Virus record (IMG/VR): IMGVR_UViG_3300042566_000153
Location: 1 to 22,553 of that record
Length of the DNA: 22,553 nucleotides
Reading direction: 5' to 3' (one strand)
DNA from: a virus
Below the pieces are notes generated by a model. That model searched no databases and was not told the origin of the DNA. It saw only the letters and a list, made by a program, of their open reading frames with translations. The position numbers were made by a program, and so were the translations under genes. Below are positions 6,772 to 22,553 of the stretch, piece after piece. Each line of letters opens with the position of its first letter. Positions within the stretch are counted from its first letter, which is position 1.

Positions 6772-9051
6772 TTGAACACCAGTCCCGAAATTGAAAGTAT
6801 CATTGAACAGGCAATAGAACAAGCAAAATCCCGCAAACACGAGTATGTAACACTAGAGCATTTATTGCTTGCATTAGTTATTCATCCTCCCTTTAAAAAA
6901 TGTTTAAACTCTTTTGGAATAGACACAGGATTGATGACTGATGAGATAAGTTCTTACTTAGATGGATTACATTCTATTGAATCTGTTGAACTTAATGTTA
7001 CTCCCAAAAGAACGAATACATTAGAACGAGCAATGAATCGTAGTGTTACCCAAGTTCTTTTTACTAATAGAAAACAAGTAACTACTATTGATTTGTATCT
7101 TAGTTTAACTTCTGAAAACAACTCACATGCCCATTACTTTTTGTTAAAGTATGGTGTATTTAGAAATGAGTTTGCGCAGCACTGGCAAAAGAATTATAAA
7201 GGTGGCGACTACACTACTTCTTTAACATCTAATCAAGCTGATGATATTTTGGAAGAGTTTACTATTAATCTTACTCAATTAGCAAGAGAAAATAAACTAG
7301 AACCAGTTATCGGTAGATCAAAAGAAATAGATGACATTGTAAATGTGTTAGCTAAAAGATTTAAAGCTAATGTACTTATGGTAGGTGATCCAGGTGTAGG
7401 TAAAACTGCAATTGCTGAAGGTATAGCAAACGCTATTATTAGTGGGGATATTCCCGAGTTTCTAGAAGGATTTGAATTGTATTCTCTTGAAATAGGTAGT
7501 TTACTTGCTGGTTCTAGATATCGCGGTGATTTTGAAGAAAAAGTAAAAACTGTGTTAGAAGCATTGGCAACTAAGAAAAATGCTATCTTGTTTATTGATG
7601 AAGCACATACCATGCAAGCAGGCGGCACAAGTAACGGATCAGTTGACTTTGCTAATATGATTAAACCAGCTATTACTAAAGGTAACTTAAAAGTTATAGC
7701 ATCAACAACTTGGGAAGAGTTTTACGAATCTTTTGAGAAAGATCGTGCTTTGATGCGCAGGTTCTACAAAATTTCAATTGATGAACCATCACATGATTCT
7801 ACTATTAGAATCTTAAATGGATTGTCAGCAAGATTAAACGATTTTCACTCTGTAGATATTACAGAAGAAGCTATTAAAGCAGCAGTAGAAAGTGCTGATC
7901 GTTATATTCATGATCGCAAAAATCCCGACAAAGCAATTGACTTGCTAGATGCTGCGTGTGCCAAGCAACGAGTCTTAGGCAACAAAGAAGCTAAAATAAC
8001 TAAAGAGCTTATTCATGAACAAGTAGAAAAATATACAGGGGTTCCTGCTGACAAGCTTTCAAACAACAACTATGAACGCATTAATAATTTGGACGCGGGC
8101 ATTAAATCAAAACTATACGGTCAAGATGACACAGTTGATAAGGTTCTTGAGCGAGTGTATGTATCATTTGCAGGCATTGGTAATGAAACTAAGCCCATTG
8201 CAAGCTTTTTGTTCTTAGGCCCGACAGGTACTGGTAAAACTGAATTGGCTAAACTCTTAAGTAAGAATCTAGAAATGCCATTGCTCAAATACGACATGAG
8301 CGAATACAGTGAAAAGCATTCAGTATCATCATTGATCGGACCTCCTCCGGGATATGTTGGTTTCGGTGATAGTCAGGTTCAGGGAGGAAGACTTATCTCT
8401 GATCTAAGCAAGAATCCACATGCTATCATGTTGTTTGACGAAGTTGAAAAAGCACATCCAGATATTTTTAATATCTTTTTGCAAATTCTTGACGAAGGTA
8501 CGATCACTGGGTCTAATGGTAAGAAAGTTAGTTGTAAGAACACTGTTATTATCTTGACTTCTAACCTAGGTTCGGCTGATAGCGAAAAGAACGCCATTGG
8601 ATTTGGTACACAAGAAAAAACTGGTGAAGATGATAAAGCACTTAAAGACTTTTTTAAGCCAGAGTTTAGAAACAGATTAGACATGGTTTGCAAGTTTAAA
8701 AAGCTTGATATGCTTTCTATTAAAAAGATTGTTATTAAGTTTACTGAAGATGTTAAAAAGAGCTTGTTGGAAAAACACAACATTACTCTTAACTTGAGCG
8801 AACCGGTTATTGAATATCTAGCTGATAAAGGTTATGATAACAAAATGGGAGCAAGACCCCTGGCTCGTAAGATTGATGAAATGATCAGAGTACCCTTGAG
8901 TAAAAAGATTTTGTTTGAACGCATTAAAGATTCAAACATCATGGCTATCATTGAAAATGATGAAATTGTGTTTAATGTGACCAACAAAGTAACAGCTAAA
9001 CTTAATGATCAAGGTATTATAGAGGTTAGTAGTGAACATAACCCTGACTGA
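6772..9051 (+). CDS. clpA: ClpA-type AAA+ protein unfoldase
   Basis: 759 residues, like E. coli ClpA (758). The start is TTG 6772, with GGAG at 6762-6765 six bases upstream. Domains: Clp N domain (1-145, VTLEHLLLAL at 27-36); AAA module 1 with Walker A GDPGVGKT (205-212), pore loop YRGDF (250-254) and Walker B ILFIDE (272-277); AAA module 2 with Walker A GPTGTGKT (483-490), GYVG pore loop (527-530), Walker B MLFDEVEKAHPD (553-564) and EFRNRLD arginine finger (631-637). The long ClpB middle domain is absent. An IGF tripeptide at 609-611 lies where ClpA and ClpX carry the loop that docks on ClpP, so it may feed substrates to host ClpP. No clpP is in the window. It follows dnaJ in one operon. 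Confidence 0.9.
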   Translation: MNTSPEIESIIEQAIEQAKSRKHEYVTLEHLLLALVIHPPFKKCLNSFGIDTGLMTDEISSYLDGLHSIESVELNVTPKRTNTLERAMNRSVTQVLFTNRKQVTTIDLYLSLTSENNSHAHYFLLKYGVFRNEFAQHWQKNYKGGDYTTSLTSNQADDILEEFTINLTQLARENKLEPVIGRSKEIDDIVNVLAKRFKANVLMVGDPGVGKTAIAEGIANAIISGDIPEFLEGFELYSLEIGSLLAGSRYRGDFEEKVKTVLEALATKKNAILFIDEAHTMQAGGTSNGSVDFANMIKPAITKGNLKVIASTTWEEFYESFEKDRALMRRFYKISIDEPSHDSTIRILNGLSARLNDFHSVDITEEAIKAAVESADRYIHDRKNPDKAIDLLDAACAKQRVLGNKEAKITKELIHEQVEKYTGVPADKLSNNNYERINNLDAGIKSKLYGQDDTVDKVLERVYVSFAGIGNETKPIASFLFLGPTGTGKTELAKLLSKNLEMPLLKYDMSEYSEKHSVSSLIGPPPGYVGFGDSQVQGGRLISDLSKNPHAIMLFDEVEKAHPDIFNIFLQILDEGTITGSNGKKVSCKNTVIILTSNLGSADSEKNAIGFGTQEKTGEDDKALKDFFKPEFRNRLDMVCKFKKLDMLSIKKIVIKFTEDVKKSLLEKHNITLNLSEPVIEYLADKGYDNKMGARPLARKIDEMIRVPLSKKILFERIKDSNIMAIIENDEIVFNVTNKVTAKLNDQGIIEVSSEHNPD

Positions 9052-11606: not shown

Positions 11607-12500
11607 ATGGCAAAACGTAAAACAAATCAAGACAAAGCTATTCCAGTAGAAGCAGTTCAGGAACTAGCTGATAAAGCACCACAAGCAGCAAGCATCGGCG
11701 GCACTGAAGCTCCCGCACAAAATCAAGTTCAAGTCAATGTAGATTTTTTAAGAACTACAAGAGCACATTTGGCAATGCCCTGCTACGGTGGCATGTTAAC
11801 AGAATCTACATTCATGAGTTATATCAAGTGGGCTAACACTGCTAGACAGTTAGGCATTGACTGGACTCTTGAGACAATGGTAAACGAGTCGCTAATTAGC
11901 AGAGCTAGAAATACACTGACTGCCAAGTTCTTAGAAATGCCTGAATCATCTCACTTGATGTTTATTGACGCTGATATTGGTTGGGAGCCATGGCATCTAC
12001 TGGTTCTATTAAACAGAGATGTAGATGTAATCGGTGGACTTTACCCGATGAAAACTATGCCAATTAAATGGGTAGTAAACGGGTTTGATGGAGCAGAAGA
12101 AGGCGCCGATGGTTTACAAGAAGTAAGTAAAGCAGGTACTGGATTTTTATTAACCAAGAAGCATGTATTTGAAAAAATGAACGGACATCCTGCTGTGAAG
12201 CAGTATAAGAATGATATTGGTCTTGACCCTAAATATGACAAGTACTTGAAAACTTACTTTGACACAGCAGTAAGGCAAAACAGATATTATTCAGAAGACT
12301 GGACTATGTGTGAAAATTGGCGTGATCTAGGTGGTAGAATTTGGGTTGACAAACGAGTTTTGTTAAGACACACAGGTACTTATACCTTCTGCCAGGAAAA
12401 TCAAGACCATTTGTTGAATACTATTGGACCTATGTATCTAGAAGCACAAAAAGCTAAAGGAATGAAACTGGTAGATCAAGCAGGAAATGAAGTAAAATAA
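11607..12500 (+). CDS. Glycosyltransferase-like protein (GT-A fold)
   Basis: 297 residues. The first 45 residues are a Gln/Ala-rich linker; the catalytic-type domain follows. HLMFIDADIGWEPWHL contains a DAD (121-123), the metal-binding D-x-D of GT-A enzymes, preceded by a SLISRARNTLTAKFLE helix as in family 2-like proteins. Later, YYSEDWTMCENWRDLGGRIW (SEDW at 229-232, which could supply the catalytic acid) and VLLRHTGTYTF (His 255) match the end of such domains. It would move a sugar from a nucleotide-sugar to DNA, protein or another sugar; the acceptor is unknown. ATG 11607 has GAGG upstream within a hairpin. An intrinsic terminator follows. Confidence 0.8.
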   Translation: MAKRKTNQDKAIPVEAVQELADKAPQAASIGGTEAPAQNQVQVNVDFLRTTRAHLAMPCYGGMLTESTFMSYIKWANTARQLGIDWTLETMVNESLISRARNTLTAKFLEMPESSHLMFIDADIGWEPWHLLVLLNRDVDVIGGLYPMKTMPIKWVVNGFDGAEEGADGLQEVSKAGTGFLLTKKHVFEKMNGHPAVKQYKNDIGLDPKYDKYLKTYFDTAVRQNRYYSEDWTMCENWRDLGGRIWVDKRVLLRHTGTYTFCQENQDHLLNTIGPMYLEAQKAKGMKLVDQAGNEVK

Positions 12501-16015: not shown

Positions 16016-16459
16016 ATGTTATCAGATGATTTAAAAGTATTATTAGCAAGTTGTTATGGCTTTGCTATAAAAGCCCAAAATTTTCATTGGAATGTAGAGG
16101 GACCAGACTTTCCCCAATATCACAAGTTTTTTGGGAAAATCTATGAAGATGTGTTTGACAATGCCATTGACCAAACAGCAGAATATGTAAGAACTTTGGG
16201 CAGTTACGCTCCCGGAAGCTTTACACGAATGGCAGAACTGTGTATAATAGAAGATCAGCTAAAGATACCCCGTGCCCAATTAATGATAGCTGAAATTTAT
16301 CAAGACAATTTAAAACTTATTGATCTTTTGAATACTTGCTTCAAATCCGCAGAGCAAGAGAACAAACAAGGTATTATGAACTTTTTAGCTGAAAGACTAG
16401 ATGCACATGAAAAATGGTCTTGGCAGTTAAACAGCACATTAAAAACAGATAGAGCATAA
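16016..16459 (+). CDS. Dps/ferritin-like protein
   Basis: 147 residues, two bases after the preceding stop, with GAGGA at 16006-16010. The N-terminal helices match Dps: NFHWNVEGPDFPQYHKFFGKI with His 24 and His 36 (12 apart as in Dps ferroxidase sites), then DNAIDQTAEYVRTLG with Asp 52 and Glu 56; spacing from His 24 to the Asp is one residue longer than in E. coli Dps. The C-terminal helix LDAHEKWSWQLNS also fits. Dps forms 12-subunit shells that oxidise and store iron and guard DNA. No lysine-rich DNA-binding tail is seen. Unlike its neighbours it lacks the EFIxE tag. Possible uses are protecting phage DNA or host metabolism; not shown. Confidence 0.85.
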   Translation: MLSDDLKVLLASCYGFAIKAQNFHWNVEGPDFPQYHKFFGKIYEDVFDNAIDQTAEYVRTLGSYAPGSFTRMAELCIIEDQLKIPRAQLMIAEIYQDNLKLIDLLNTCFKSAEQENKQGIMNFLAERLDAHEKWSWQLNSTLKTDRA

Positions 16460-17956: not shown

Positions 17957-18220
17957 ATGTCAAACGGTAGAGTATTTAATCAAGACGAAAAAACTAAATT
18001 GACCCAGATTATAAATGAGGGTCTTTCAGTATTAAATGAGATAGAAACGCTTAACGGCGGATTATCGGATACGATAAAAGCTATTGCAGAAGAGCTAGAT
18101 ATCAAGCCATCCGTACTAAAACGGGCAGTAAAGACTGCATACAAGTCATCACTTACACAAACTAATCAAGATCATGAAGATTTAAACACGATTCTGGAGA
18201 CTGTTGGCAGGGTCCAGTAA
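17957..18220 (+). CDS. dsbA: DsbA-like double-stranded DNA-binding protein
   Basis: 87 residues; T4 DsbA has 89. The pattern of an N-terminal acidic helix, ETLNGGLSDTIKAIAEELDIKPSVLKRAVKTAYK, and an acidic C-terminal helix follows T4 DsbA (helix, turn, D-[EI]-AEELxIxxKxxxR-like helix, tail). T4 DsbA binds DNA at late promoters and boosts late transcription, so it would act on the ATAAATA sites in this window. AGGAG at 17947-17951 gives a strong start at ATG 17957. It is followed after one base by gp43. Family call is by length, layout and similar motifs, so moderate. Confidence 0.7.
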   Translation: MSNGRVFNQDEKTKLTQIINEGLSVLNEIETLNGGLSDTIKAIAEELDIKPSVLKRAVKTAYKSSLTQTNQDHEDLNTILETVGRVQ

Positions 18221-18221
18221 T

Positions 18222-20924
18222 ATGTATGTTGATGCAATCAATGATGCAAAAAATGATCGCATACATGTGATAGAAAGAACTTCTGATGGCACTAGAAGCT
18301 ATCAGGAGTTCCCTGCTAACTATGTATTTTATTATCCCGACTCTAAAGGCAAGTATCGTTCTATCTATCGTGACTCTTTAAGTAGGTTTTCTACTAGAAA
18401 GAAAAGCGAATTTGAAAAAGAAAAGCGTATACACTCGGGTAAGAAGTTATTTGAAAGCGATGTTAACACTGTTTTTAGATGTTTATCTGACAACTATTTA
18501 GGTGTAGAAGCTCCAAAACTTCACACAGCGTTTTTTGACATTGAGGTTGATTTTTCCCCAGAACGCGGATACGCGCCTACTAGTGATCCTTTTAGTCCAG
18601 TGACAGCAATTGCATTGTACTTGGATTGGTTAGATCAACTTATATGTTTGGCTATTCCACCTAAACACATAACAGACGAAACAGCACAAGAGCTAGTAGC
18701 AGAATTTCCAAACACTTTTTTGTTTCGTAGTGAAATAGAAATGTTTGAAACTTTCTTTCAAATAATTGAAGATGCTGATGTGTTAACAGGATGGAACTCA
18801 GAAGGATTTGATATTCCATATATAGTAAACAGAGTAACTAAGATCATGAGTAAAGATGATACTAGAAAGTTCTGTTTAATGGGGCAATTACCTAAACCAA
18901 GAACTTACGAACGATTTGGTAAAGAAGAACAAACATATGACTTAGTAGGTAGAATTCATATGGACTATCTTCAGTTGTATAAAAAGTACAACTATGAATC
19001 CAGACACAGTTACTCGTTAGATGCTATCGGGGAAATGGAAGTTGGTGAAACAAAAACTCCATATGAAGGCACACTAGATCAACTATACAATCGTGACTTC
19101 AAAGAATTCATTAGATATAACCGCCAAGACACTATGCTTGTAGTAAAGATTCACAACAAGCTAAAATTCTTAGAGTTGGCTAATCAACTAGCACACGAAA
19201 ATACAGTATTGTTACCAACAGTAATGGGTTCAGTAGCTATGATTGAAATGGCTATCTATAATGAAGCACATGCTAGAGGTCTTATCGTGCCAGATAAGCA
19301 AAGAGGTCATTCAGGCGAAATGGCTGCTGCTGGTGCTTATGTTGCCCAACCAAAGAAAGGATTGCATTACTGGGTGGGAGCTATAGATATTAACTCACTG
19401 TATCCTTCAACAATTCGTGCTTTGAACATGGCCCCAGAAACAATTGTAGGGCAAATTAGACAAACACATACTGAAAAGTTCTTACACGATAGAGCAATGG
19501 AACTAGCTAAAGAAAAGCGAAACTATGACGAAGATGATGAACTTGACATGAGTTCATTGCTTTGGGAAGGATTGTTTGGTTCACTAGAATATACTTCAGT
19601 AATGAATCAAGAACGCGGCACAATGCTTATTGTTGACTTTGAAGATGGTAGATCACAAGAAATGTCTGCTGCTGAAATATGGAAAATGATTTTTGATTCA
19701 CACAGTCCGTATATGTTATCAGCTAATGGTACTATATTTAGAAGTGATCAAGAAGGTGTTATTCCCGGTCTACTTACTCGTTGGTATGCTGAACGTAAAG
19801 ACTTGCAGAAAAAACTAAAAGAAGCTACTACTGAAACAGATAAAGAGTATTATGACAAGCGACAGTTGGTAAGAAAGATTTTGCTTAACTCTGCTTATGG
19901 TGCACTCTTAAATGAACACTGTAGGTTCTATGACAAACGATTGGGTCAGTCAGTTACTTTAACTGGTAGACAAATTGTTAAGCACATGAATTCTCAGATC
20001 AATGAGATTATAACAGGTGCTTACAATCATGAAGGCGAATCTATGATATACTCTGATACCGACTCAGGTTATTTTTCAGCTTGGCCTATTATTGAGCAAG
20101 AAGTTAACGCAGGTAAGATGGAATGGAACAAAGAACTAGTTGTCCAATTATATGATAATATTGCTGATCAAGTTAACGATAGCTTTCCCGGGTTCATGGA
20201 ACGTGCATGTCATTGTCCAAGAAAGAACGGTGCTATCATTAAAGGTGGCAGAGAAATCATAGGTGACGTGGGCTTGTTTATCAAGAAAAAGCGTTATGCG
20301 GTAAATATCTATGACAAAGAAGGCAAGCGTAAAGACGTAAATGGTAAAACGGGTGATATTAAAGCTATGGGTCTTGAACTAAAAAGATCAGATACGCCTA
20401 AATATATTCAAAAGTTTTTACTAGACGTTCTTACTATGGTTCTAAGCAATAAGTCCAAAGAAGATATTATAGAACGTATCAAAGATTTTAAGCGAGAACT
20501 ATCCGAACAGCCTAGTTGGACTAAGGGTTCTCCTAAGTCAGTAAACAAGCTTACTTTTTACGGCGAACTAGAAGCTAGAAGTAAAAAAGGTAAGGCTACT
20601 ATGCCGGGGCATGTTCGTGCAGCTATCAATTGGAACTTTCTTAAAAAGGCACATAGCGACAATTATTCTATGACTATTTTAGATGGTATGAAAGTTGTTG
20701 TGTGTAAGCTTAAAACCAATCCGTTAGGATTCACTTCCATTGCTTATCCTACAGATGAGCTTAGACTTCCAGATTGGTTCAAACAATTACCGTTTGATGA
20801 CTCATTAATGGAAACTACACTAGTAGATAAAAAGATTGAAAACCTATTAGGTGTACTAAACTGGGACTTGAAAAGTAACACAGACACAAATACTACATTT
20901 GATAGTTTGTTTTCTTTTGGTTGA
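18222..20924 (+). CDS. gp43: DNA polymerase, T4 gp43 type (family B)
   Basis: 900 residues from ATG 18222, with AGGG at 18209-18212; T4 gp43 has 898. A TTG at 18204 in the same frame lies inside the preceding gene and is less likely. Exonuclease motifs: DIE at 106-108, TGWNSEGFD at 189-197, and YNRQD (Tyr 299, Asp 303). Polymerase motifs: DINSLYPS at 389-396, KILLNSAYGAL at 552-562, YSDTDS at 610-615. All catalytic residues appear intact. The C terminus TTFDSLFSFG matches the gp43 tail (LDFLFG) that binds the gp45 clamp. It replicates the phage DNA with proofreading; gp45 is 80 bases downstream. No intein or intron is present. Confidence 0.97.
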   Translation: MYVDAINDAKNDRIHVIERTSDGTRSYQEFPANYVFYYPDSKGKYRSIYRDSLSRFSTRKKSEFEKEKRIHSGKKLFESDVNTVFRCLSDNYLGVEAPKLHTAFFDIEVDFSPERGYAPTSDPFSPVTAIALYLDWLDQLICLAIPPKHITDETAQELVAEFPNTFLFRSEIEMFETFFQIIEDADVLTGWNSEGFDIPYIVNRVTKIMSKDDTRKFCLMGQLPKPRTYERFGKEEQTYDLVGRIHMDYLQLYKKYNYESRHSYSLDAIGEMEVGETKTPYEGTLDQLYNRDFKEFIRYNRQDTMLVVKIHNKLKFLELANQLAHENTVLLPTVMGSVAMIEMAIYNEAHARGLIVPDKQRGHSGEMAAAGAYVAQPKKGLHYWVGAIDINSLYPSTIRALNMAPETIVGQIRQTHTEKFLHDRAMELAKEKRNYDEDDELDMSSLLWEGLFGSLEYTSVMNQERGTMLIVDFEDGRSQEMSAAEIWKMIFDSHSPYMLSANGTIFRSDQEGVIPGLLTRWYAERKDLQKKLKEATTETDKEYYDKRQLVRKILLNSAYGALLNEHCRFYDKRLGQSVTLTGRQIVKHMNSQINEIITGAYNHEGESMIYSDTDSGYFSAWPIIEQEVNAGKMEWNKELVVQLYDNIADQVNDSFPGFMERACHCPRKNGAIIKGGREIIGDVGLFIKKKRYAVNIYDKEGKRKDVNGKTGDIKAMGLELKRSDTPKYIQKFLLDVLTMVLSNKSKEDIIERIKDFKRELSEQPSWTKGSPKSVNKLTFYGELEARSKKGKATMPGHVRAAINWNFLKKAHSDNYSMTILDGMKVVVCKLKTNPLGFTSIAYPTDELRLPDWFKQLPFDDSLMETTLVDKKIENLLGVLNWDLKSNTDTNTTFDSLFSFG

Positions 20925-20932
20925 ACGAACAG

Positions 20933-20961
20933 TTGACAAACGCAATAAAATCCTATATTAT
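20933..20961 (+). promoter_or_regulatory. Sigma70-type promoter for the sliding clamp operon
   Basis: TTGACA (20933-20938) is perfect; TATTAT (20956-20961) matches the -10 consensus at five of six with a 17-base spacer. Starts near 20968 give a leader of about 38 bases with AGAGGA (20993-20998). A CTAAATA at 20977-20983 is one base off the late core and could add late expression. A separate promoter would give clamp in excess over polymerase. Confidence 0.75.
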
Positions 20962-21005: not shown

Positions 21006-21740
21006 ATGAAAGATTTTTTACAAGATTTGATCCAGCATACACATGGCTTGGGAGTAGTGGAGTTAGTAAAAGTAACAGGCACTGATCAAGTTACTAAGAT
21101 CGAAGCAATGGCAGAAGATAAGACCGTTATTATCAGTGGCACTTTTAAGCATCCAATCGCTGATGCTATTGGTACTTTTGGTATGCCCAATCTAGGCAAG
21201 CTTAAAACTATTTTAGGTTTTGAAGCTGAGTATGACGAAAATGCTTCTATCAGTGTTGTTAGAGAAACAAGAGATAGTGAAGACGTTCCTACTACTATTC
21301 ACTTTGCTACAAAGAATAACGACTTTGTAAATGATTACAGACTTATGTCTAAAGAAATTGTAGAAAGCAAAGTAAAAACTGTTACATTTAAGGGTGCAGC
21401 TTGGAACGTAGAATTTGAACCCACAGTAGCTGGTATTATGCGTTTGAAAATGCAAGCTTCTGCTAACAGTGAAGAAGTAACGTTTTCAACTAAAACAGAA
21501 AGCGGAAACTTGAAAATTTATTTTGGTGATCCTTCTACTCACTCAGGTAACTTTGTGTTTCATGCAGGTGTAACTGGTACTATGACCAAAGCTTGGCAAT
21601 GGCCTGTAAAAGTGTTTCTTTCTATCATGGACTTGCCCGGCGATAAAACAGTTAAAATCTCTGATCAGGGTGCTGCTGAAATCACAGTAGATTCAGGCTT
21701 AGCTGTGTACTCTTACATTCTTCCTGCAATGTCAAAATGA
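21006..21740 (+). CDS. gp45: Sliding clamp, T4 gp45 type
   Basis: 244 residues (T4 gp45: 228). The sequence has the beta-alpha-beta pattern of gp45-type clamps, with TFKHPIADAIGTFGMPNLGKLKTIL and a final VDSGLAVYSYILPAMSK like the T4 end. It lies 80 bases after gp43, whose last residues match the clamp-binding tail. Clamps of this type form trimers around DNA, hold the polymerase and, in T4, also activate late transcription with gp33 and gp55, so the protein links replication to the late promoters seen here. Start ATG 21006 has AGAGGA upstream. It overlaps the next gene by ATGA. Confidence 0.93.
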   Translation: MKDFLQDLIQHTHGLGVVELVKVTGTDQVTKIEAMAEDKTVIISGTFKHPIADAIGTFGMPNLGKLKTILGFEAEYDENASISVVRETRDSEDVPTTIHFATKNNDFVNDYRLMSKEIVESKVKTVTFKGAAWNVEFEPTVAGIMRLKMQASANSEEVTFSTKTESGNLKIYFGDPSTHSGNFVFHAGVTGTMTKAWQWPVKVFLSIMDLPGDKTVKISDQGAAEITVDSGLAVYSYILPAMSK

Positions 21741-21973
21741 TTACAAAGATAGCAACAGGTTTGGGATTATTAAGTACTGGCGGCTCTTCAGGCCCGTATG
21801 TAAGTTTGAATAATCATAGTGCTGGCATGGTTAGATATAACGGGACAGATATGGAAGTTTACGATGGTTCGTCTTGGTATAAAATATCATCTACAGTTAA
21901 TATAGATATTGACTATAACACACGAATGATTATGGACTGGGCCAGTAAAAAATGGCAGAAGAAAAAGCAATAG
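21737..21973 (+). CDS. Small protein with virion-like beta motif, unknown function
   Basis: 78 residues, ATG 21737 overlapping the gp45 stop (ATGA). The middle, MVRYNGTDMEVYDGSSWYKI, is a motif common in phage tail-fibre and other virion proteins (GxxRYNxxxxxxEVYDGxxW), with a GLGLLSTGGSSG stretch before it. The C-terminal tail is basic (DWASKKWQKKKQ). Its place in a replication operon is unusual for a structural motif. I do not know its function. The next gene starts within it. Confidence 0.65.
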   Translation: MITKIATGLGLLSTGGSSGPYVSLNNHSAGMVRYNGTDMEVYDGSSWYKISSTVNIDIDYNTRMIMDWASKKWQKKKQ

Positions 21974-22092
21974 AAAAATTAAAAGACAATCCCACTTTTG
22001 CTGATCTTTTAAAACAAAAAGCTGATATTGAAGAAAAGATACAGATAGTAAAAATACTACTAAAGGACAATAATGGATCAGATCCAGCATAA
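21952..22092 (+). CDS. 46-residue helical protein of unknown function
   Basis: It overlaps the gene before by 22 bases and the gene after by 20. The sequence begins MAEEKAIEKLKDNPTFADLL and goes on with KADIEEKIQIVKILLKD; it reads as two charged helices with a heptad-like pattern, a possible small coiled coil. No strong ribosome binding site is seen, so coupling is likely. Its real expression is plausible because codon bias resembles its neighbours and it fills the gap between 21973 and 22073. Confidence 0.6.
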   Translation: MAEEKAIEKLKDNPTFADLLKQKADIEEKIQIVKILLKDNNGSDPA

Positions 22093-22553
22093 TCTTACTA
22101 ACGCACACAATCCAGAATGGGCACTGTTTTTACCAGCAGTGTCTTCATTCTTTATCGCAGGATTAGGCAAACAACGAGAAGGTGAGCAGTACTTTGATGC
22201 TGCTAGAATTCCTCAAGGGTTTAATGGTGACGTAGAACCACTTAACTTCTTGAACTCTACTCAGGGTTTGTACAAGTACAAATGGGGCTTGTATTCTGCA
22301 GGTCACGCTAATCTAGACATTACTAAAGATGATCCAAGTGAGTCAATTATCAGAAAGCGTGAAAAGGGTACTTTCATGTTAGGCGACTCAGGTGGATTTC
22401 AGATTATGAAGGGGCAATGGCCAGCTGATTGGAAAGATCCTAACTGTCCTAAAGCTATGAAGCAGCGTCAACTAGTACTAAAATGGATGGATACTTATAT
22501 GGACTATGGTATGTGTCTTGACGTTCCTACTCAAACTCTTAGAAACAAACACT
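22073..22553 (+). CDS. N-terminal part of a tRNA-guanine transglycosylase/DpdA-like protein (runs off the window)
   Basis: 160 residues are visible; the frame is open at the window end. AAAGGA at 22062-22067 precedes ATG 22073 by 5 bases. Residues 102-111 read MLGDSGGFQI, close to the DSGGFQ signature of tRNA-guanine transglycosylases, whose Asp binds the base. MCLDVPTQ at 147-154 is placed like the second catalytic-region Asp. Proteins of this superfamily swap guanine for a 7-deazaguanine in tRNA (Tgt) or, as DpdA, in phage DNA. The rest of the N terminus does not match bacterial Tgt, which favours a DpdA-like DNA enzyme, but tRNA action is open. Synthesis genes (queC, queD, queE, folE) are not in this window. 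Confidence 0.72.
   Translation, partial: MDQIQHNLTNAHNPEWALFLPAVSSFFIAGLGKQREGEQYFDAARIPQGFNGDVEPLNFLNSTQGLYKYKWGLYSAGHANLDITKDDPSESIIRKREKGTFMLGDSGGFQIMKGQWPADWKDPNCPKAMKQRQLVLKWMDTYMDYGMCLDVPTQTLRNKH

Follow-up and report, generated by a model that had tools for sequence, protein, structure and literature searches.

The polymerase and probable clamp genes, and the truncated last gene

The window, a stretch of 22,553 nucleotides that makes up the whole of IMG/VR virus record IMGVR_UViG_3300042566_000153, closes on a run of genes that are all read from the plus strand. A gene for a family B DNA polymerase (18204..20924) is followed by that of a probable sliding clamp (21006..21740), by an open reading frame (ORF) of 78 aa that overlaps the clamp stop codon (21737..21973), and by another of 46 aa, read by eye from the sequence, that overlaps the start of the next gene (21952..22092). 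This last gene, encoding a DpdA-like transglycosylase, starts with ATG and is still open at the window end (22073..22553), which leaves its 5′ third, 160 of 518 codons. The clamp gene is preceded by a good match to a sigma-70-like promoter, TTGACA-17-TATTAT (11/12; 20933..20961); promoter-like sites number six in all against 5.4 expected in shuffles, a count that is not above the shuffled level. Because the two small overlapping ORFs bridge the clamp and DpdA-like genes and a promoter-like site precedes the former, both proteins are likely to be made from one predicted transcript.

Family B polymerase genes are present in 213 of the 224 loci at which the enzyme family is found, and the clamp-family gene is directly upstream in 219. 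The assignment of the latter as a sliding clamp is moderately supported by its position behind the polymerase gene and by weak profile matches: all members of its family fall within PHROG 12062, annotated as of “unknown function”, 2 of 59 match a processivity-factor PHROG (best 6.7e-5), and the family profile has no significant match among PDB sequences or to T4-type gp45.

Several other genes of the window can be recorded here. Positions 776-1282 encode a short protein with a DNA polymerase III alpha-like domain (PHROG 11127, 1e-39) in a phage whose replicative polymerase is of family B, and phage Phosso has a DnaE-like stub near its dpdA-like gene. Reading by eye suggests a Dps/ferritin-like protein at 16016-16459, a ClpA/ClpC-like ATPase at 6772-9051, and two consecutive GroES-like genes at 1625-1912 and 1887-2285. 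Campylobacter phage CP220 carries a ferritin-like gene beside its clamp and folE genes.

The full-length protein and its place in the transglycosylase superfamily

A search of the phage’s own genome spans only the 22.5-kb window record, and a near-identical contig was therefore used to complete the gene. Across all of the window, the 267-kb IMG/VR contig G001 is 99.97-99.99% identical to it, and several shorter contigs from other metagenomes (L001, L003, and L004) agree with it as well. The complete protein of 518 aa was taken from this contig (99.98% identical), and its gene occupies L020:10001-11557. Three scans of viral contigs yielded 225 full-length relatives, and at least 598 loci exist.

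The original prediction rested on two motifs of the truncated protein, both of which belong to a conserved catalytic framework. DSGGFQ (residues 105-110; 22385..22402) contains D105, the counterpart of D89 in the DSGGFQ motif of Escherichia coli Tgt, and MCLDVPTQ (residues 147-154; 22511..22534) contains D150. Among 92 full-length members, which are 33-83% identical to the window protein, residues D105, S106, G107, G108, Q110, M147, D150, and P152 are invariant, and judged by this conservation each of the two motifs is more than chance. A third aspartate, D298, sits in ITFDCASP beyond the window end, where the profile alignment pairs FDCASP with FDCVMP of the E. coli Tgt sequence MFDCVMPTR; the aspartate of this FDC motif is the nucleophile of the TGT mechanism. 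D105, D150, and D298 are invariant in 92/92 family members and are kept in 52-53 of 53 bacterial relatives.

The predicted structure places the protein in the base-exchange superfamily, as had been proposed from the motifs. An AlphaFold model built on the alignment of 92 members (pLDDT 89.5, pTM 0.88) contains the TGT barrel fold by which the TGT/DpdA superfamily is recognized, and in a fold search of the PDB the first 13 matches were all TGTs, 12 of them with E≤0.001 (probability 1.00), the first non-TGT match having an E-value of 0.02. TM-scores to the bacterial enzymes are moderate (0.47-0.54 by TGT length, at about 13% identity). The matches in a Foldseek comparison with BFVD include DpdA2 of Vibrio phage nt-1 (R9TGF0, 3e-9), a TGT of Achromobacter phage Motura, and mycophage queuine transferase. 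Among sequence profiles, the nearest is the TGT-domain protein of Vibrio phage vB_VcorM_GR7B (7e-12), followed by nt-1 DpdA2 (5e-4) and E. coli Tgt (1e-3), with controls at 0.09-0.7. Annotation libraries are silent on the family: no model in Pfam, PHROGs, or NCBIfam recognizes the protein, none of the 92 members scanned singly reaches the cut-off of the Pfam TGT model PF01702 (there is one sub-threshold TGT match), and searches of PDB sequences with the single sequence and then with the profile gave no TGT match, the fold search alone finding TGTs.

Comparison with characterized enzymes shows how far the family has diverged. It shares with the bacterial TGTs of E. coli and Zymomonas mobilis the fold, DSGGFQ, and the FDC nucleophile region, but lacks the zinc motif and has a different N terminus, a trait already noted in the truncated gene, as well as additional helices at the C terminus and a tail that is disordered. 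The full sequence bears out what would be expected of a protein other than Tgt, in that the CxCxxC motif, present in E. coli Tgt, is found in 0/225 members; it is absent from Enterobacteria phage 9g DpdA and nt-1 DpdA2 as well. The 9g enzyme (DpdA1) belongs to the same superfamily and stands in the same gene order of polymerase, clamp, dpdA, folE, and queD, but has 317 rather than 518 aa, and neither detectable similarity (P 0.11; P 0.33) nor a sequence match to it or to its PHROG 887 was found. Vibrio phage nt-1, whose DNA contains dPreQ0 (Hutinet et al., 2019; PMC6884629), is a large T4-like phage in which DpdA2 (PHROG 10773) also combines the TGT fold and a DSGG motif with companion folE, queD, and queE genes. 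The window enzyme is 54 residues longer, most of its relatives have a polymerase-like tail, and its cassette differs (orf147, GT1, and a phosphoribosyltransferase, usually without QueC); similarity to DpdA2 is limited to distant profile and fold matches, with no BLAST or PHROG 10773 match.

The GR7B protein and its counterpart in Xanthomonas phage PhiXhv-12 (2e-11) form the nearest outgroup. Their phages likewise have folE, queD, and queC, but no polymerase-clamp pair adjoins the gene in the annotated stretch, the proteins match the DpdA2 PHROG weakly, and that of GR7B is without the tail peptide. Within the family, cultured representatives are provided by the PA5oct-like Pseudomonas phages (PA5oct, Paride, MIJ3, and others), whose protein shares 34% identity with the window enzyme over 414 residues. 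In these phages the enzyme gene is preceded by those of a polymerase and a clamp-family protein and adjoined by orf147 and GT1, queE follows about 3 kb further on, and the enzyme is annotated as a hypothetical protein only. Campylobacter phage CP220 gave no significant family match in the 150 of its 177.5 kb that were searched. The window enzyme is thus neither Tgt nor DpdA1 nor DpdA2, and by the libraries at hand it is best read as a new, divergent, and widespread DpdA subfamily, possibly one already named, as the family may prove to be DpdA3 or DpdA4 of Cui et al. (2023).

A shorter branch of the enzyme, in which the catalytic residues are kept and the clamp peptide described below is absent, occurs on some 50 proteobacterial contigs and chromosomes (L296-L345), for example in Shinella (L298), Ciceribacter (L302), Limnohabitans (L304), and Rhizobium (L316). 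Recurrent ORFs at these loci encode a tyrosine recombinase (34 loci), a 574-aa protein of unknown nature (25), DUF6641 (19), a YhhQ-type transporter (8), and a GT1 homologue (about 8), and the whole looks like an uncharacterized DNA-modifying mobile element. The DpdA-like gene is also held by contigs binned as Rhodobacteraceae, Neomarinimicrobiota, Pacearchaeota, Euryarchaeota, and Bacteroidetes genomes (L291-L295); phage polymerase B and clamp genes adjoin it there, so these are probably phage contigs that were mis-binned into metagenome-assembled genomes.

Polymerase-like peptides in the tail of the enzyme

In phages T4 and RB69, a peptide at the C terminus of the polymerase binds the sliding clamp. 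The corresponding peptide of the window polymerase, TFDSLFSFG (20895..20921), is presumed to do the same, and its likeness recurs in the disordered tails of DpdA-like relatives as KFNELFEF, MFDQLFEV, KFDELFSF, and TFGSLFSF. The C termini of the polymerase and the DpdA-like protein of Vibrio phage 2.275 read NNTDLFDW and NNNDLFGW, respectively, and in the PA5oct group the two peptides are HFDSLFGW and SFNSLFDV. Scoring with a matrix derived solely from the polymerase tails put 120 of 180 distinct DpdA-like tails above a threshold set at the 99th percentile of shuffled tails, against 0.28% of 1415 control ORFs. The peptide is present in 15 of 25 clusters formed at 70% identity (related sequences not being independent), and in 0/49 bacterial relatives, whose loci lack a neighbouring clamp gene of this kind. 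The replication link proposed from gene order alone is in this respect stronger than first thought, and the enzyme probably works at the replisome.

The reading that competes best with clamp tethering is that the enzyme is a DpdA without clamp contact, the tail peptide being an effect of chance or composition and the gene order one of mere co-expression. The motif is short, the identity of the clamp is weakly established, and the window protein’s own copy, GNPDLFSIS at its very end, scores 0.6 against a threshold of 7.6, so that the case for tethering is weaker in this phage than in the family at large. Shuffled tails of unchanged composition and the control tails nevertheless lack the peptide, which occurs in 15 of the 25 clusters and is absent from the bacterial branch, and its place varies from internal to the extreme C terminus, a mobility seen in functional linear motifs. 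An enzyme that makes no contact with the clamp accordingly seems rather unlikely, though it carries appreciable weight, and docking on the clamp is retained below as part of the preferred reading.

The downstream cassette and the proposed modification of phage DNA

Downstream of the DpdA-like gene, and on the same strand, follow genes for orf147, GT1 (a GT4-like glycosyltransferase), GMP reductase, FolE, a nucleotidyltransferase, QueD, a purine-type phosphoribosyltransferase, QueE, GT2, and an epimerase. The genes folE, queD, and queE, which had been proposed as worth seeking, are thus all directly downstream, and together with orf147, the glycosyltransferase, the phosphoribosyltransferase, and GMP reductase they lie no more than 8 kb 3′ of the enzyme gene. 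Genes for 7-deazaguanine synthesis that accompany the enzyme in a phage, as they do here, are one mark of a DpdA in the broad sense. In 45 non-redundant loci, each with at least 8.5 kb of downstream sequence, orf147 was counted 45 times, the clamp 42, FolE 39, QueE 31, and the phosphoribosyltransferase 26; in 17 large records, FolE was found in 17, QueD in 16, and the phosphoribosyltransferase in 9. A search for queC, suggested likewise, found in the 267-kb contig, at a distance of about 190 kb, a divergent QueC-like gene whose product is a PP-loop protein bearing the cysteine motif of QueC. Among large records, QueC occurs only in G001, in Vibrio phage 2.275, whose family member adjoins queF, yhhQ, a queuosine gene, and folE, and in records of other DpdA types; in most relatives it is absent or very divergent. 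The similar QueC-like protein of another member adjoins a radical SAM gene, and a weak QueC match in a further member was rejected as looking like TilS, for which reasons preQ0 cannot be assumed to be the product.

The product may instead depend on orf147 (L020:11777-12220), a cysteine-less paralogue with the QueD fold. It has no convincing Pfam match; its profile agrees with that of QueD at P 3.4e-5 (0.19-0.67 for four other families), and its model (pLDDT 94.3) matches QueD and 6-pyruvoyl tetrahydropterin synthases. H36, H62, H64, and E132, the last a glutamate at the substrate-anchor place of the fold, are invariant, and on our reading of the alignment the QueD nucleophile position holds no cysteine. 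Homologues also occur in Cellulophaga phages phiST, phi19:2, and phi13:1. DpdL, a 7-carboxy-7-deazaguanine decarboxylase, was defined in a 2023 paper that reportedly dealt with such phages. From this we infer that orf147 is possibly a decarboxylase giving 7-deazaguanine; if so, the base would be plain 7-deazaguanine.

A further modified base was considered thinkable in the original prediction, which had pointed to the glycosyltransferase-like gene at 11607. That candidate was abandoned, since its relatives are mostly in Synechococcus ACG-2014f cyanophages and in phages of rhizobia, in which this enzyme was not found. Another glycosyltransferase, GT1 (L020:12572-13771), lies inside the cassette. 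A broad profile counted it in all 45 non-redundant loci, and a stricter test, which is preferred, placed it between orf147 and FolE in 109 of 112; conversely, of the contigs retrieved by GT1 alone, all 46 with sufficient flanking sequence contain the DpdA-like gene, orf147, and the clamp. Its EX7E-like pattern is kept in most members (QETLGI..YEG). Among isolated phages, GT1 was found only alongside some DpdA (the PA5oct group, Phosso, ACP17, X1, and BUCT-ZZ01; weakly PhiXhv and Ep032), and in Phosso both GT1 and orf147 are 170 kb from the dpdA-like gene. About eight bacterial loci have a homologue close to the DpdA-like gene, on several chromosomes with no phage replication genes nearby. GT1 and the cysteine-less orf147 are a tightly conserved pair that accompanies DpdA genes of several subfamilies.

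The best genetic argument concerning the substrate of the enzyme comes from Synechococcus cyanophage BUCT-ZZ01, in which one cluster reads QueE, phosphoribosyltransferase, QueD, FolE, GT2 (a relative of that found here), DpdA2, orf147, and GT1. DpdA2 stands there where the window-type enzyme would, and since one replaces the other in the same cassette, both subfamilies are taken to do the same job on DNA. This displacement tells against the view that the enzyme is a tRNA-guanine transglycosylase of the queuosine pathway, acting on host or phage tRNA to tune translation. The fold is that of a TGT, and folE, queD, and queE serve tRNA queuosine too, so that the cassette could in principle serve tRNA; but CxCxxC is missing from all 225 members, no Pfam TGT match reaches the cut-off in 92 of them, the gene is bound genetically to the clamp in 219 of 224 loci, and the phage is without tRNA genes, none being found in the 267-kb contig, all of which makes this view improbable. 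A permuted tmRNA of the same phage was noted at L092:13078-13377 on the minus strand (Rfam RF04321, 78.9 bits; ARAGORN tag ANDEFALEDIRLAA). More improbable still is that 7-deazaguanine enters DNA as a nucleotide made by the phosphoribosyltransferase (L020:16524-17111, with the intact PRPP motif ILIVDDINDTGET) while GMP reductase (L020:13773-14876; 560 bits to the NCBIfam model) depletes the supply of guanine, leaving the TGT-like protein some other role or none, given that the phosphoribosyltransferase is found in 26 of 45 loci and 9 of 17 large records, that the TGT-like enzyme keeps all catalytic residues, and that salvage of exchange-freed guanine explains both cluster genes equally well.

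This large, uncultured phage thus very probably replaces guanines in its own DNA, a reading of the gene as one for DNA base modification that the full sequence, the TGT/DpdA fold, the loss of the zinc motif, and the presence of folE, queD, and queE support. There is a strong probability, in our judgement, that the gene encodes a divergent DpdA that swaps guanine in phage DNA for a cassette-made 7-deazaguanine, its disordered tail docking on the clamp and the virion DNA being protected as a result. Predicted fold, catalytic residues, zinc-motif loss, gene cluster, DpdA2 swap, and the tail peptide of most relatives are the observations beneath this reading, and activity on DNA, the identity of the base, clamp binding, and protection are what we infer. 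In the proposed scheme, FolE, QueD, and QueE would convert GTP to 7-carboxy-7-deazaguanine, a step well supported by gene content, and a derivative would then be formed, probably by orf147. The DpdA-like enzyme, docked by its C-terminal tail on the sliding clamp, would exchange guanine in freshly copied DNA for the modified base, with D298 as nucleophile and D105 as acid/base, a step supported by fold, residues, gene order, and the cassette swap. The other steps are conjecture: the phosphoribosyltransferase and GMP reductase would salvage the released guanine, and GT1 may add a sugar to the base. The modified virion DNA would be protected from host nucleases. The fuller picture, in which a clamp-tethered enzyme installs 7-deazaguanine in new DNA and GT1 glycosylates it to leave a sugar-bearing base in the phage genome, is offered as speculation that we consider doubtful.

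Because Pfam, PHROGs, and NCBIfam miss an enzyme that is carried by at least 598 viral contigs, what is probably a common kind of DNA modification in large environmental phages has gone unannotated, and the omission extends to cultured phages such as PA5oct and Paride. With the linked glycosyltransferase, the idea that phage DNA contains a sugar-bearing 7-deazaguanine can be tested directly, and a transglycosylase that rides the clamp, if true, would explain how post-synthetic base exchange keeps pace with the replication of a 270-kb genome.
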